A DNA stretch of 20,250 nt, taken from positions 1 to 20,250 of the IMG/VR virus record IMGVR_UViG_3300046535_002106. One strand, given 5' to 3'. Numbering within the stretch: position 1 is the first letter of the stretch; each line of letters opens with the position of its first letter. This document shows, in pieces, positions 13,017 to 19,230 of this stretch. The position numbers were made by a program, and so were the translations under genes. The notes below the pieces were generated by a model that worked only from the letters and a program-made list of their open reading frames with translations, was not told the DNA's origin and searched no databases. This stretch comes from a virus.

Positions 13017-13268
13017 ATGCAAGGAACTGTAACTGGAATTAGAAAATTTGGTGTGGTTGTTCAATTAGACGGAACTCCAGAAATTGGAGATTTATTTGAA
13101 TTATACCGAATTCAAGATGGAACGGAAATCATTCTTGGAAAAGGATATGCGAGAAAGCACATGTTTGAATCATTCAAGATCAATCCAATTGAAGATGAAT
13201 CTGGTGATAGAGCTTCTTTTGAAGACGTTCAAATGGGCGATTTAGTACGAAGTATTGAATCCACTTAA
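13017..13268 (+). CDS. Small beta-rich unknown protein
   Basis: The 83-residue product starts MQGTVTGIRKFGVVVQLDGT, which reads like the first strands of a small OB/SH3-type barrel, and continues with short strands and glycine turns. Codon use differs from genes to the left: most glycines use GGA (7 of 10), with Glu GAA and Ile ATT preferred. It may mark a boundary with the virion cassette. An AAGGGGAT ribosome-binding site supports the start. It ends convergently with the minus-strand gene, sharing TTAA (13265-13268), so both stop codons overlap. Confidence 0.75.
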   Translation: MQGTVTGIRKFGVVVQLDGTPEIGDLFELYRIQDGTEIILGKGYARKHMFESFKINPIEDESGDRASFEDVQMGDLVRSIEST

Positions 13269-13271
13269 GTG
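13262..13271. repeat. 10-bp palindrome at the convergent gene ends
   Basis: CACTTAAGTG is a perfect palindrome that contains the stop codons of both converging genes within its central TTAA. There is no GC-rich stem or T-run, so it is not a convincing terminator. Confidence 0.5.
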
Positions 13272-15247
13272 TTGTATTTGATCTGATGAATTGCTATTTC
13301 TGATGGCGTTCCCGGGCCCGGATAACCAAAACCTCCAAAATCAGGAGAGCTTGGGAGAGCGTCCCAGGTTACAATTTCATTAGTGATACTATCTACTGCT
13401 TGCATCTTGATTTGAATGTTAGTGGCAGAAGTTACTAAATTCCTACTAAGCACAGTGGTTTGTAAAGGAGTTCCTGGTCCTGGGAAGAGGGTTCCGGCAA
13501 AATCCTCGGTTGGCGCAAGCCATGTAACTAAGCTGGAATCGGCACTAGATCTTGCCTGCATAACCACACTGATGCTGCCAAGTGGAGAAAATGCATCTAC
13601 AGCAATTTCTTCTGGAGATCCCGGTCCAGGATAAGCTGTTCCTGTAAAATCAGGATATGGCCAAGACCAAGTATATAGCTGCCCATTAGAACTAGATCTT
13701 GCTTGCATAACCCAACCAGTGAATTGGCCATTCCATAGTTGCATAACATTATCACCAGCAGCATTTTGAAATGTATTAGAGTATTGTGCAGCAAATGGAT
13801 CTGCCTGTTGTAATCCACAGTTAATGAAATTGCCATTAGTTCTACCGTTAAACCCTCTACGCGCGCCCCACATCCACGTTCCATCAAATTCAAGACTCCA
13901 AACTCCAAGACCGCTGTCACTGAATGGTGGACTATTAGAATCTATTTCATCTAGGATTGCCGCATCCGATATATCAGTTGGAGGTAATTTTACAATACTA
14001 GATCGACTGACGCTAAGAGTAGACCTTGAACCTGCCCATAAATTAGTTCCATCTGAACCAATAGCTCCGCCATCTGCCTGAAGAAAGGTGAAGAAATCAG
14101 TAGTTCTAAAGCTGGCAGACGGGAATTGTGTTGGATCAAATCTAAGTAATCGATTGCGTGGAGTAAATGTGTTGGTAGTAAAGGCATAAAGATTGCCAGG
14201 AAAAGGAGACCTTCCAGTACTATCGCTCAACATACCAAAAATTCCATGCGTTGAGTCTTGATAGATACTAATAGTGCCAGCACCTGGATCTATACGTGAA
14301 ACAATACCTTTACCAGTAAGACCGCCAAATGTAGTATTTCCTACGTAACCGCTAGCGGTCCAAATGAAACCAGAATCAAAACAAATTTCTTCGGCATGTC
14401 GTGTTACGCTAATTTGCTGGGAAGAAGTGCTTTGGACACCTGGTCCATTAGAAATAACTGTGGCAATATTGAACTTTTCCAAAAGACTAATGCCTTGCCC
14501 CGCACCACCAGCCGAAGCATTAATTACCCAAAGATTTCCAGAATTATCTTCTAAGCAGTCTCTCGCTTCACTACCATCACCCAGATCGCTTGGATTACCA
14601 AATATGCTTCCATCAGCAATGATACCGTTTTTCAATTGAGCAAGCCCAACAACAGTTTTAGTTGCTACGTCAATGATAATAACGTATCCGCATGGAGAGC
14701 CAATAATACTTTGTCCTGGAGTATTTAGGTGCCAAATAAGCGAACCATTATTTGCATCTGTGGATGCTAAAGGATTGGTAATATTTCCATCTGAGTCAAT
14801 AGGGAATGTACCATTGTTATTAGGATCGGCAGCACCAGAAATAGTGACAGTTAATCCAATATAATTAGGAGAGAATCCTCCACCGAGTCCTGGTCTATCT
14901 GCGAACGAAAAAAACCTAGTTCCAAATGAAGTATCTACCTGTCCATGTATTCCGCGATCAGAATATTGACCATGCCAGCCAGATGTACAAGCATATATTC
15001 TTGTTCCATCAGGAGATTTTTTTATTTTACGCATGTTTTTGATATAAGGACCAATGTATTGTCTTAGATCAATTTTTTTAACGACTCTTGGATATGGTGT
15101 TGTTGTAGGATCGAGAACGGTAACGAAATTAACCGAAGCCGGTATGTCATTACTATTACCAAAACCAGTAGCACGACCATCACATGTCCAGAGGTAACCT
15201 CCCGCATATGCTAGTCCAGTTATTCCTTCCCAAATAGCTGATGTCAT
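13265..15247 (-). CDS. Virion/receptor-binding-type protein: beta-propeller plus three C-terminal repeats
   Basis: The 660-residue product has no signal peptide. Seven blade-like motifs of the form ...(D/S)(G/S)xx(L/I)(W/Y)... are spread along residues 1-462: near 9-22 (LAYAGGYLWTCDG), 75-90 (SPDGTRIYACTSG), 228-245, 285-300 (FDSGFIWTASG), 337-355, 394-406 (GSDGTNLWAGS) and 448-462 (EFDGTWMWGARRG). This suggests a seven-bladed NHL/SMP-30-like propeller. A module at about 104-177 interrupts it (YIGLTVTISGAADPNNNGTF). Three C-terminal repeats start at 514, 563 and 615, each M-Q-A...V/Y-T-W...D-F...P-G-P-G. It is co-transcribed with the fibre-like gene upstream (7-base gap, TGAGGA site). It is probably a tail-tip or receptor-binding protein; this is inferred. 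Confidence 0.8.
   Translation of the reverse strand: MTSAIWEGITGLAYAGGYLWTCDGRATGFGNSNDIPASVNFVTVLDPTTTPYPRVVKKIDLRQYIGPYIKNMRKIKKSPDGTRIYACTSGWHGQYSDRGIHGQVDTSFGTRFFSFADRPGLGGGFSPNYIGLTVTISGAADPNNNGTFPIDSDGNITNPLASTDANNGSLIWHLNTPGQSIIGSPCGYVIIIDVATKTVVGLAQLKNGIIADGSIFGNPSDLGDGSEARDCLEDNSGNLWVINASAGGAGQGISLLEKFNIATVISNGPGVQSTSSQQISVTRHAEEICFDSGFIWTASGYVGNTTFGGLTGKGIVSRIDPGAGTISIYQDSTHGIFGMLSDSTGRSPFPGNLYAFTTNTFTPRNRLLRFDPTQFPSASFRTTDFFTFLQADGGAIGSDGTNLWAGSRSTLSVSRSSIVKLPPTDISDAAILDEIDSNSPPFSDSGLGVWSLEFDGTWMWGARRGFNGRTNGNFINCGLQQADPFAAQYSNTFQNAAGDNVMQLWNGQFTGWVMQARSSSNGQLYTWSWPYPDFTGTAYPGPGSPEEIAVDAFSPLGSISVVMQARSSADSSLVTWLAPTEDFAGTLFPGPGTPLQTTVLSRNLVTSATNIQIKMQAVDSITNEIVTWDALPSSPDFGGFGYPGPGTPSEIAIHQIKYNT
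13289..13708 (-). repeat. Three ~50-residue C-terminal repeats
   Basis: Residues 514-550, 563-599 and 615-653 of the 660-residue protein align by eye: MQARSSSNGQLYTW, MQARSSADSSLVTW and MQAVDSITNEIVTW, each followed by a DF(T/A/G)G stretch and a YPGPG or FPGPG turn. Spacing is 49 and 52 residues. The DNA has diverged but the protein pattern is clear. Repeats of this kind commonly form a beta-rich receptor-binding or trimerising tip. Confidence 0.85.
14717..14938 (-). other. Inserted module within the propeller
   Basis: Residues about 104-177 of the 660-residue protein do not follow the blade pattern. They carry a YIGLTVTISGAADPNNNGTF core and a later GSLIWHLNTPG strand. The surrounding blade motifs (75-90 and 228-245) resume afterwards, so this reads as a domain inserted into a loop between blades. 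Confidence 0.5.
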
Positions 15248-15254
15248 GCTTTCC

Positions 15255-16127
15255 TCACATTGTAATTTCTACAGATTTTACTACGGCAAAAACAGCGTCT
15301 CCAGGGAAATCGCTAATAGCTTCTGCCTGTACTTGATATACCGTGTTACCAGGTAAACTTGCAATTACAGATGAAAGTGCTCTAATGTCCGGAATGCTAG
15401 TAATTGAAGCCCTAGAGCCTGTAACTTCAGAAACAGTGGTTAAGTTGAACAACCTAACTGTCAAAGTTAAAGAAGGATCACTAACGCCACCAATAGTCTC
15501 TAATGTAGCATTAGTTATAGCTGTTGATAAATAAAATGCCCCAATAACATACCATCCAGGTTCAACCCCTTGGGAAGCAATTGGTTGAGTTGAGGCGACC
15601 GCCCTTATACTTGAGGAGCCCGCTGCCACAAGTGTGGGCTTCCAAATAGCGCCGTCCCATACAAGAGCCTGTCCTGAGGTTGGTGCTGTTGCTGCCAGCG
15701 GCCTGCTTTGCAAACCAACAACAGTTTGAAATAGTGGGTTTCCAGTTAAATCTCCTGCGAAATTTACATCAGCCGGAATTGCTCCAGGTATCCACGCAAT
15801 CCCATCCCATATTAGTGTCTGACCTTCACTTGGCTCTACATCAGAAACTGGCCTTCCTTGAATGCCGATAACAAGCGGAGTCTCTAAAGTTCCACCCAAA
15901 TCACCTTCTAGTTCAATTATTCTTAAATTGCCAACAATATTCTCAATAACATCAAGTCTATTCCTAACAGTTGTGTAAACTGCGCTTGGTTTAACACCCA
16001 ATTCTTCTTCAATAGCAATAATTGCTTCCCTCAATTGCTCAACAGATCTGCCTGTTACAGGCTGTCCGTCAACCAATGGCCTGAGGGTGAAAACGGTGTC
16101 TATAGCTGCTGGATATTTTGTTACCAT
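15255..16127 (-). CDS. Tail-fibre-like structural protein (possible adaptor)
   Basis: The 290-residue product begins MVTKYPAAIDTVFTLRPLVD. This N-terminal pattern, Y-P-x-x-I-D-T, then AIIAIEEELG (35-44) and TVRNRLD (53-59), recurs in phage structural proteins. Two tandem repeats (75-115 and 125-164) each read GDL.G...(T/P)...VVG(I/L)Q(G/S)RP(V/L)...P(S/T).GQ(T/A)L(I/V)WDG..W.P. The C-terminus (about 175-290) is Ser/Thr/Val-rich and beta-like, with no known catalytic site. It precedes the propeller gene by 7 bases in one operon and probably connects or partners with it. The gene runs opposite to its flanks. Its start is supported by an AGGA site and the promoter-like repeat upstream. Confidence 0.82.
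   Translation of the reverse strand: MVTKYPAAIDTVFTLRPLVDGQPVTGRSVEQLREAIIAIEEELGVKPSAVYTTVRNRLDVIENIVGNLRIIELEGDLGGTLETPLVIGIQGRPVSDVEPSEGQTLIWDGIAWIPGAIPADVNFAGDLTGNPLFQTVVGLQSRPLAATAPTSGQALVWDGAIWKPTLVAAGSSSIRAVASTQPIASQGVEPGWYVIGAFYLSTAITNATLETIGGVSDPSLTLTVRLFNLTTVSEVTGSRASITSIPDIRALSSVIASLPGNTVYQVQAEAISDFPGDAVFAVVKSVEITM
15636..15905 (-). repeat. Two tandem ~40-residue GDL...WDG repeats
   Basis: Residues 75-115 and 125-164 of the 290-residue protein repeat the same pattern: GDLGGTLETPLVIGIQGRPV and GDLTGNPLFQTVVGLQSRPL, each followed by an SxGQxLxWDGxxWxP turn. A partial copy (GDLLGNYPGPIAVVGLTGI) occurs in the collagen-like protein on the other strand at residues 52-70, linking the two proteins as parts of one structural family. 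Confidence 0.8.
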
Positions 16128-16261: not shown

Positions 16262-18193
16262 ATGAGCGGAATTTTAACTCCAGGATACCTAAGGTGGGAT
16301 GGCACCAAATACGTTTTAGACAACGATGTTGAAATCGTTGGTCCGGCGGGATCCCAAGGTCCATCTGGTCCGGCGGGTCCAGCAGGTCCGCCAGGTCCTA
16401 ATGGCGTAGCCAGCGGTGATTTACTGGGAAATTATCCCGGCCCTATCGCTGTTGTTGGTCTAACTGGTATTACTGGTATCGTCAACTTCGGCGCTACCAT
16501 TACAAACCCTACGATTTCCCAAGCCGCTACAGGATCTACTCTTGGCCAGCCGCTAACAATCAAGGGCCAAACTGGCGCAACTATTGGTGGCGCTGTTGTT
16601 TTGCAAAGCGGAACAGCAACCACGGCTGGTATTATTCAGTTTTTAGTAGGCTCTATTCAGGCCGGTTTTTTTGATGCTAACTCTGCTTTAAGATTAGGCC
16701 CAAGCGCTTCTTCTACAATTCCATCAGGTCCAAACGGTTCAGCCCCAGTTGCAGGAACTGATTTCCTGTATGGTTACAATGCTAGCGGTAGTATGTGGGG
16801 CGAGTTCTTTACTAGCTCCAATGCTGACAGAGCTGCTATGGGCGTTTATAATAGTGGACTTGGCACTACCAATGTAAACGGTATCAGTATCCAAGGAGTT
16901 GGATCTACTTACTCTGTTGGTGCTTACCAAAGAAACGGCGTAATTGAGCAGGCCGGCCCCGCCACCTCTGGTTTGATTTTATCTAAAGTTCTGGGCGATG
17001 GTACCAGCCGCGCCATTACTGGACGTATTTGGCAAACTGGTGCTTGGTGTGTTGGCGACAATGGCATCAATGATACCTCTGCCGAGGCCCAGGCAGTTTC
17101 TGGCGCTTTGATCAATCTTTCACCAGCAAACTTTGGTATTGTTGGTGGCGGCACAATTAATCTAGTAACAGGATCACTTAGCGGCCAGACAACTGTTGGC
17201 GGTCAAACGATCATGTATAATGCTGTCAATACCAGCAACTCGTTTGGAAACTTGGTTTTGCAAGGAAATCTTGGCGTAGCTTTCGTTGCAGCAACTACTG
17301 TTGCAGCCACTGTTAATACCACCAAACTTACTAACCAAGTAGGTAGAACTCATAAAGTACGTAGTACAACTACAACTCCGGTTACCATTATCACTACTGA
17401 TGAAATTGTTTCTATCGGAGCGGTTTCCAGCGTAAGCACAACTGTTGCAGCGGGCTCTAACGGAGCTATTTTACCACAGGGTACGATTAACGTAGCCTCC
17501 ACAACAGGATTTGCAAGCACCGGCGCTATCTATGTTACAACCACTAATGGTCCACAACTAGTTACTTACACTGGTACGGGCGCAACAACTTTCACAGGAT
17601 GTTCTGGTGGAACGGGCGCAATGACTACTGGTAATGCTGTTACCAGCTTGTTTGCTATCAATTTACCTTCTACACCAACTACAGGAGACTTGTACACAGT
17701 TAAAGATGCAAATGCTAGCTGTGGCGCAACTAACTTCTTTGTTTCAGGTAATGGTGTTAATATTGATGGACAGACTGGTATTGTGTTGTCTACAAACTTC
17801 GCTCAAGCTACGTTTGTTTACAATGGTACTACATGGATTTCCTCACTATCGAACAACCTAATACCAAACGGATTTTCTTCGGTTATAAGCGTACCTAGCA
17901 GCGGAGTTGCAACTGTAGTTGGATTCGACCAGCTATTACTTTGTGACCCAACATCAGGTGGTGTCACAGTAAATGCGCCTCCTAGCCCGTTAGCAAACTT
18001 AAGATTTACTGTCAAAGATGCTACATCACAAGCCACTTCTTTGAAGCCAATTATCGTTAATGGAAATGGTAGACTTTTGGAAGATCCTGGTAATCCAGGT
18101 TTTTATACATCAACTGTCATCATTACTGCAGCATCTAGGTCAGTAACTTGGGCTTACGATCCTTCAACTAGAAATAGATATACGGTGGTATAA
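16262..18193 (+). CDS. Collagen-like modular tail-fibre-type protein
   Basis: The 643-residue product has seven Gly-X-Y triplets at 27-47 (GPAGSQGPSGPAGPAGPPGP), a GDLLGNYPGPIAVVGL motif (52-67), then a long Gly/Ser/Thr-rich beta region with few charged residues. At the C-terminus two copies of a beta domain are recognisable by (Y/F)TVKDA motifs at 478-483 and 582-587, each leading to a G-N-G turn and a late W. The first copy is split by a module at about 388-462 that also occurs in the next gene. The layout (collagen shaft plus trimerising beta domains) is typical of tail or head fibres. A TGAGGAT site sets the start, and the stop overlaps the next ATG (TAATG). Confidence 0.85.
   Translation: MSGILTPGYLRWDGTKYVLDNDVEIVGPAGSQGPSGPAGPAGPPGPNGVASGDLLGNYPGPIAVVGLTGITGIVNFGATITNPTISQAATGSTLGQPLTIKGQTGATIGGAVVLQSGTATTAGIIQFLVGSIQAGFFDANSALRLGPSASSTIPSGPNGSAPVAGTDFLYGYNASGSMWGEFFTSSNADRAAMGVYNSGLGTTNVNGISIQGVGSTYSVGAYQRNGVIEQAGPATSGLILSKVLGDGTSRAITGRIWQTGAWCVGDNGINDTSAEAQAVSGALINLSPANFGIVGGGTINLVTGSLSGQTTVGGQTIMYNAVNTSNSFGNLVLQGNLGVAFVAATTVAATVNTTKLTNQVGRTHKVRSTTTTPVTIITTDEIVSIGAVSSVSTTVAAGSNGAILPQGTINVASTTGFASTGAIYVTTTNGPQLVTYTGTGATTFTGCSGGTGAMTTGNAVTSLFAINLPSTPTTGDLYTVKDANASCGATNFFVSGNGVNIDGQTGIVLSTNFAQATFVYNGTTWISSLSNNLIPNGFSSVISVPSSGVATVVGFDQLLLCDPTSGGVTVNAPPSPLANLRFTVKDATSQATSLKPIIVNGNGRLLEDPGNPGFYTSTVIITAASRSVTWAYDPSTRNRYTVV
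16340..16402 (+). repeat. Collagen-like Gly-X-Y segment (7 triplets)
   Basis: Residues 27-47 are seven uninterrupted Gly-X-Y triplets, four of them starting GPA or GPP. Segments this short in phage proteins usually act as a trimeric shaft or linker and vary in repeat number between relatives. Confidence 0.9.
17432..17641 (+). other. Shared ~70-residue beta module, copy 1
   Basis: Residues 391-460 of the collagen-like protein (AAGSNG..., TINVASTTGFASTGAIYV, VTYTG, TTFTGCSGGTG, MTTGNAV) match residues 195-274 of the next protein in the same order. The sequence before (TDEIVSIGA) and after (FAINLPSTPTTGDLYTVKDA) belongs to a different domain, so this looks like an insertion into a loop. Confidence 0.7.
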
Positions 18194-19230
18194 TGACTTT
18201 TACTTTTCCACAATGGGCAACAGCTCTAGATTTAGATTTTACTACACTACCAGCTCAATCACTGGCCTCAGATACTACTTTCACAGTAGGTAGCAGCCCT
18301 ATCTTTGGAACTGGTCTTGTATGGACTAAAGTAAATTCTGCCAGTGATGCTTCAGCCATGAACATAACTAATGGTTCTGGTCTGATAATTACTCCCAACG
18401 CAGCCAGCAATGTAAGCGGCGCTACCTTTACTGCGCCCGCTCTAAGAATACAGCTTAACAGCATTATCCCTGACTGGACTGTATTCATGCCATTCAGGAT
18501 TTGGATATGGGAATCAGCCTCCAATGAAGCAGCTAATAACGATAAGTTGTTCTTTGGAACTTACATACCAAACGGCGCATTTCAAAACCAATTAACTCTA
18601 GGACACTGGAGAGGATTTGGCGGAGCTACCAATGGTTGGGGTTCTCAATTTACCGTTCTCAATACTGATGTCACTACTACTGGTACAAGTATTCCATTAT
18701 CTGCAAATAGAGTTGGTGTAATGTACTGCCCAATGGGAGTATTAGGAGGCAGCTCGCCTCTGATAGTAGGAAGTACTGTAACGACAACTACTACAACTAT
18801 CACTGCAGGATCAAACGGAGTAGCTATTAATGGTGCCACAACTATCAACGTAGTATCCACAGCAGGATTCTCTTCTTCGGGCATTATCAACGTTACAAGT
18901 ACTACTGGTAGTAATATCATTGCTTATACTGGCATTACTGGCACTTCATTTACAGGATGTACTAGTGGTAGTATCGTACCACTCACTGGTACGATGTCCA
19001 CTGGCGGTTTCGTTAGTTTTGGAACCTGGCCCCCAACAAATTCACTAACTATCTGTAATGGTGCCGCAATCACTTCAGCATCTTCTGCGGCCTTCTCTAG
19101 TACAGCCAGCGGTTCACATACGGTTACAGAAAACAACCTCTTTCTATCTGCTTTTAGAAACGGCAGCGGCACTGCTTTTTCTACTACAATTGCTAGAATC
19201 AGAGTGGACTACTTGCCAACATTTAATTAA
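18193..19230 (+). CDS. Jelly-roll-like tail-fibre-associated protein
   Basis: The 345-residue product begins MTFTFPQWATALDLDFTTLP. The first ~190 residues have a lectin/jelly-roll feel (LDLDFTTLP, a GLIITPNA strand, WTVFMPFRIWIW, KLFFGTYIPNG, GVMYCPMG). A shared beta module sits at about 195-274, and the fold seems to resume afterwards (LTICNGAAI, LFLSAFRNGS, IARIRVDYLP at the C-terminus). It overlaps the collagen-like gene by one base (TAATG) and is probably in the same structure. It may bind a surface sugar, but no catalytic site is visible and the fold call is by eye. Confidence 0.8.
   Translation: MTFTFPQWATALDLDFTTLPAQSLASDTTFTVGSSPIFGTGLVWTKVNSASDASAMNITNGSGLIITPNAASNVSGATFTAPALRIQLNSIIPDWTVFMPFRIWIWESASNEAANNDKLFFGTYIPNGAFQNQLTLGHWRGFGGATNGWGSQFTVLNTDVTTTGTSIPLSANRVGVMYCPMGVLGGSSPLIVGSTVTTTTTTITAGSNGVAINGATTINVVSTAGFSSSGIINVTSTTGSNIIAYTGITGTSFTGCTSGSIVPLTGTMSTGGFVSFGTWPPTNSLTICNGAAITSASSAAFSSTASGSHTVTENNLFLSAFRNGSGTAFSTTIARIRVDYLPTFN
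18775..19014 (+). other. Shared ~70-residue beta module, copy 2
   Basis: Residues 195-274 (TAGSNGVAING, TINVVSTAGFSSSGIINV, IAYTG, TSFTGCTSGS, MSTGGFV) correspond in order to copy 1 in the preceding gene. DNA identity is patchy, so the copies are not a recent tandem duplication. The flanking jelly-roll-like sequence differs from the flanks of copy 1. Confidence 0.7.

Follow-up and report, generated by a model that had tools for sequence, protein, structure and literature searches.

A domain of ~70 residues, predicted to be all-β and to fold autonomously, is very probably a portable insert of tailed phages. In this reading, copies drawn from a pool within the genome entered loops of two adjacent proteins, P1 and P2, in separate events; the domain also inserts into itself, and its likely contribution is added surface. 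P1 and P2 are encoded in the window, the whole 20,250-base virus record that was analysed. Positions below are window coordinates unless a locus (L number) is named. The features are as follows.

16262-18193 (+): P1, an ORF of 643 aa, collagen-like and of tail-fibre type, hosting module copy 1; orthologues in L003-L008
17381-17431 (+): VKDA domain (interrupted), first half, ending DEIVSIGA plus linker; aligned with empty-site orthologues
17432-17644 (+): module copy 1, P1 aa 391-461, with short linkers VSSV and TSLF
17645-17842 (+): VKDA domain (interrupted), second half, INLPSTPTTGDLYTVKDA ... WISS; aligned with empty-site orthologues
17879-18190 (+): second VKDA-type domain, uninterrupted, at the P1 C-terminus; from sequence and orthologue alignment
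18193-19230 (+): P2, 345 aa, its start overlapping the P1 stop (TAATG), hosting module copy 2
18193-18786 (+): P2 host domain, N-terminal part, by host-family profile
18787-19017 (+): module copy 2, P2 aa 199-275
19018-19227 (+): P2 host domain, C-terminal part, by host-family profile

BLASTP comparison of P1 and P2 yielded a single significant common region (P1 aa 397-461, P2 aa 205-275) with 37 of 71 positions identical and an E value of 1e-11. The Smith-Waterman score of the two proteins was 193, exceeding all of 500 residue shuffles of P2 (86 ± 12, maximum 133), and the match is therefore not explained by low complexity. Once the modules were removed, the hosts had no similarity (score of 52 versus 55 ± 8 for shuffles). 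The module is the sole thing common to the two proteins. These results confirm the proposal of a first-pass annotation that one ~70-residue module occurs in the adjacent genes, and the motifs which that annotation named (TINV.ST.GF, YTG, FTGC and STG/TTG) were all found. The span it gave, 17432-19014, opens with the first module and closes with the second; the limits of both are refined here. The collagen repeat of P1 (aa 27-48) is a weak match, below the Pfam cut-off.

In P1, the module interrupts a VKDA domain. All five orthologues compared (L003, L004, L005, L007 and L008) align with P1 to either side of the module and have no module at that position. The window junctions read DEIVSIGA-VSSV[STTVAAGSNG...TTGNAV]TSLF-AINLPSTPTTGDLYTVKDA, and the corresponding empty site of L005 reads DEIISIGTLAAPCTVNLPATPTVGDTYTIKDA. 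A module of 71 residues and its short linkers thereby occupy the place of a ~5-residue loop in a likely hairpin. From these alignments, the P1 module appears to be a clean in-frame insertion in a β-hairpin of the VKDA domain. Its absence from all five orthologues suggests gain over multiple loss. The uninterrupted second VKDA domain is also present in L003, L004, L005 and L007. The remaining orthologue (L008:6001-8460) has an internal tandem expansion, giving 819 aa, and is without the second VKDA domain.

The neighbourhood of P1 also differs between viruses. Two opposite-strand genes of 660 and 290 aa (13265-16127, -) lie between a kinase-like gene and P1, and contain repeats and weak propeller and DUF5907 matches. 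The region upstream of P1 is a variable locus, as the kinase-like gene adjoins P1 directly in L004, L005 and others. Genes at L247:251-1138 (-) and at 15255-16127 (-) of the window have related, ELGVKPS-type N-terminal parts and differing C-terminal domains, which may be another sign of domain swapping at the P1 locus.

For P2, a simple search returned no close relative. A search of related genomes combined with a profile scan identified ten homologous P2-host domains, all module-free (L246-L250 and L256-L258), as well as near-copies of them in L252-L255. We built an HMM from the ten module-free domains, leaving P2 out. Intact P2 matched this HMM in two pieces (100.8 and 26.5 bits), while P2 from which the module had been excised gave one end-to-end match of 143.4 bits. 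The break in the match of the intact protein lies just before a conserved FPxL loop. According to these profile data, the P2 module is a putative insertion in a loop of a domain known without it. L248 and L249 each have a P1-like gene with a P2-like gene immediately after it, and the module is in neither; the gene pair thus recurs, and the two insertions are most simply additions in the lineage of the window virus.

We considered whether the module could instead be integral to each host domain, with P1 and P2 having one fold and the empty-site relatives having lost the module. The surroundings of the module are indeed β-rich and T/G-rich in both proteins, and MAFFT is prone to aligning the module with the VKDA domain when both are given as fragments. 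However, the hosts without their modules are dissimilar to each other, all P2-host relatives are module-free like the five P1 orthologues, the module is found by itself, as tandem copies and in ~40 other host clusters, and the lone module is predicted to be a compact domain. A fold shared by P1 and P2 is largely refuted by the empty sites, and we consider this alternative extremely improbable. The data support the earlier proposal that a different host domain is interrupted in each gene, the VKDA domain in P1 and a putatively jelly-roll-like one in P2.

The two copies are 68% identical in nucleotide sequence and 54% identical in amino acid sequence. For comparison, the median nucleotide identity among all module copies within each of five related records was 66-68%. 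The P1 copy is most similar to copies that related viruses carry in other proteins (75% amino acid identity), and the P2 copy is likewise nearer to copies in other genomes (67%) than to the P1 copy. The two differ by as much as any pair of copies in the genome, so one did not arise from the other by recent duplication. A simple duplication between the adjacent genes, from P1 to P2 or the reverse and with no wider mobility, would fit their adjacency and translational overlap, but it is at odds with this background level of identity, with each copy having its best relatives elsewhere, with the two sites being in unrelated domains, and with the module-free gene pairs of L248 and L249. We regard such a duplication as very unlikely. 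Rather, the P1 and P2 modules appear from their sequences to have been drawn from different copies of a pool. The earlier view that the DNA is diverged, with no recent duplication, is borne out; its description of the insertion as old holds for the divergence of the copies and not for the P1 event, which looks lineage-specific in view of the five empty orthologues.

Both insertions are also present in another assembly of this virus that is not identical to the first, and so are not an assembly artefact. This 38-kb record, IMGVR_UViG_3300047311_000833, is 99.87% identical over 9,989 nt (13 mismatches) and continues the window downstream. The relatives of the virus include large phage contigs of ~200-480 kb.

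To model the fold of the module, we used AlphaFold2 on the P1 copy alone with 69 aligned copies. The model was compact and all-β, with a pLDDT of 90.6, a pTM of 0.77 and strands at residues 8-11, 24-27, 37-43, 46-52, 59-61 and 75-78. Its best Foldseek match in the PDB was the tail tube of Acinetobacter phage Mystique (9n71; TMq 0.70, E = 0.042), a likeness not significant at 0.001 and with no sequence relationship shown; other matches included the phage GP4 portal-tail protein and F1/V-ATPase β-barrels. Among viral predictions in BFVD, 13 matched at E ≤ 0.001, including the wedge initiator of the cyanophage Synechococcus phage Bellamy (TMq 0.77). No Ig fold was present among the best 50 Foldseek matches listed, the top ones being barrel domains of tail and ATPase proteins, and there was no Pfam Ig match to the module. 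Based on the Foldseek matches, we provisionally label the module a barrel-like domain.

The module is widespread among phage proteins. Using two peptide patterns, we found 305 stretches in IMG/VR viral contigs that encode module relatives, and an HMM iterated on the fetched loci detected 389 domain hits in 220 proteins. Single-linkage clustering of 219 module proteins with the module masked gave 40 host clusters, an approximate count in that clusters may have other domains in common and some ORFs are partial. Among the hosts are families of baseplate wedge, tail fibre, central tail fibre J, adaptor and virion structural proteins. In two cases the module lies in the interior of a Pfam domain: in L172 (module at aa 273-333) this is Baseplate_J, whose 238 profile positions are spread over 318 aa (79-396), and in L132 (module at aa 124-182) it is SU10_adaptor, which spans aa 4-276. 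On its own, the module matched 12 PHROGs of tail, baseplate or virion proteins or of unknown function. Matched stretches number 10-22 per virus, with 13 in the 38-kb record of the window virus and 21-22 in related records of 210-481 kb. The profile search across phage proteins thereby supports the mobility that the first-pass annotation had suggested, with the module in many unrelated structural proteins. Found in dozens of these, and even within itself, the module behaves like a portable unit from which virus surfaces are built.

The module is not covered by any Pfam or NCBIfam model, and PDB sequence searches with it returned no relative. In tblastn searches of named phages, the P1 module, the P2 module and one other huge-phage module had no match at E < 10, to which low-complexity filtering may contribute. 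A cyanophage-type query (L115) matched 438 named phage records, mainly gp7-type baseplate wedge proteins, and the isolated phages carrying this second form of the module are mainly cyanophages and pelagiphages. A comparable pattern search of 84,980 cellular genomes yielded just six module relatives, some of them in apparently secreted bacterial proteins. Those in L269-L273 lie in repeat-rich, apparently secreted proteins of Filimonas, Coriobacteriia, Acidimicrobiaceae MAGs and Catenulispora. Some module hosts also have CBM_5_12, Laminin_G_3, PA14 or Mtd_N domains, a purely circumstantial hint of a possible adhesin or carbohydrate-binding role.

In proteins of 750-1260 residues from the window virus and its relatives, N- and C-terminal half-modules flank whole modules.

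L164:4428-8201 (aa 192-820), L175:3465-7247, L170, L148:2322-5297 and L260: nested-module proteins, by complementary break points

With numbers giving the HMM break positions and F a whole module, L164 reads (24 F 24) (24 (39 (40 F 41) 40) 24) F 23), and the window virus's own nest (L148/L260) reads (36 F 34). When halves were paired on a last-in-first-out basis, the breaks of 15 of 17 pairs met within -3 to +5 model positions; the two exceptions were a three-piece copy (L156) and, in L175, a pair of weak halves that the HMM had merged. The HMM resolved four levels of nesting, or five if a weak outermost half is accepted (L175, aa 388 onward, 5 bits; in L164 by eye). These patterns indicate that the module is nested in itself to a depth of at least four levels and probably five. 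Break points map to two loops of the model, one at residues 28-36 (HMM 24) and the other the hairpin at 43-46 (HMM 34-41). Others lie near HMM 50 (L262, L264, L266 and L156) and, by eye, near HMM 12 (L189). In L156 and L189, an outer copy has two inserts at two loops. Nests in orthologues do not represent independent events, as the pattern is conserved between them. AlphaFold2 modelling of a nested pair gave a pLDDT of 34.8 on a seven-row alignment, which is too shallow. That interrupted hosts would fold correctly is argued from sequence.

We propose that recombination places the module in-frame in exposed loops of virion proteins, with the host domain still folding around it. Separate insertions would have entered the hairpin of the P1 VKDA domain and the loop of the neighbouring P2 domain, their source being different copies of the pool that is abundant within the same genome. 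As the module's own loops would be equally permissive, copies would insert in copies, giving bracket-like nested proteins. The simplest route would be that the many copies occasionally recombine, illegitimately or through short homology, and that selection retains those insertions that are in frame and in loops. The likely benefit would be extra protruding surface, for adhesion or contact, on fibre, baseplate and adaptor proteins, as suggested by the types of host.

A dedicated mobile element or nuclease process, such as a homing-type or targeted recombinase, might instead insert the module, and its spread would then be in part selfish and not solely the outcome of selection for surface variation. 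The very high copy number per genome and the self-nesting do resemble a transposon pattern, and a LAGLIDADG-type endonuclease-like gene, recognized by motif only, lies immediately upstream of a collagen-like, P1-type gene (L010:5138-5962, +). Against this, the ~70-aa module encodes no enzyme, every copy is in frame, the copies are old and diverged, and rare illegitimate recombination plus selection suffices for in-frame loop insertions. Nor was there an excess of direct repeats flanking the modules, as would mark target-site duplication: cognate flanks matched at 6.40 of 9 bases, versus 6.33 for non-cognate flanks. The module flanks showed no other trace of how insertion took place. A near-repeat seen by eye at the P1 module (GTTTCCAGC / GTTACCAGC) was rejected as a target-site duplication, being unsupported by the comparison of cognate and non-cognate flanks. 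A dedicated process is an unlikely source of these insertions, and we favour recombination with selection.

A broader proposal is that the module re-inserts in three or four of its own loops, to four to five levels, with the result that the surface proteins of large phages would be branched like trees and not linear fibres. The genome-wide pool of copies would then be a recombination substrate for continual in-frame re-insertion, as in P1 and P2. The chances of this extended scheme seem to us evenly balanced.

Phage tail proteins evolve by domain shuffling, usually seen as end-to-end mosaics; this module enters the middles of domains. It is an uncatalogued family entering both host domains and itself, and empty-site relatives make each event traceable. 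Taken together, its sites record which loops of tail, baseplate and adaptor proteins tolerate insertion in nature; the proteins are also a natural system for the folding of interrupted and nested β-domains. A Pfam-type model of the module would re-annotate many 'hypothetical' phage structural proteins.

Promiscuous Ig-like domains are known in phage virion proteins. Like them, the module is a small β-domain that has been shuffled between unrelated proteins of the phage tail, baseplate and head; unlike them, it belongs to a different sequence family, is inserted in loops within domains and nests in itself. Domain mosaicism in phages is well described, with receptor-binding and baseplate proteins as hot spots of recent mosaicism (PMC10684548).

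The module also resembles phage E1_FCCH-like repeats (Pfam PF16190), which are T/G-rich β-repeats of similar size, and 28 of 36 proteins with such repeats also have the module. The two are interspersed in large proteins of L140, L141, L164, L175 and others. We rejected their homology: hhalign gave a probability of 0.1 between the profiles, and in multi-module proteins the E1_FCCH matches fall on other residues than the module. The E1_FCCH-like repeats may themselves be interrupted, as at aa 328-390 of L175, running into a module half. The module of cyanophage and pelagiphage baseplate-wedge and tail-tube proteins ('YTG.....FTGC.RG'; PHROGs 2885, 708 and 4406) is of the same family by HMM. That form ends in RGxxG, lacks the SNGxxLPQ start and usually occurs in one to three copies, and the loci retrieved showed no nesting of it.

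Domains are commonly interrupted by insertions, a minority of which are nested (PMC13114784). In a limited search of the literature, we came across no account of this module or of self-nesting among phage virion proteins. A precedent for self-nesting does exist in Si3 of cyanobacterial RNA polymerase, in which SBHM repeats are nested in themselves (PMC10802570), to six levels (PMC13114784). As in Si3, a β-barrel-like family is repeatedly nested within itself, several copies being assembled from distant sequence segments. The module has no demonstrated relationship to SBHM, and whereas Si3 occupies one host site in one cellular enzyme, the module is a phage family with many hosts.
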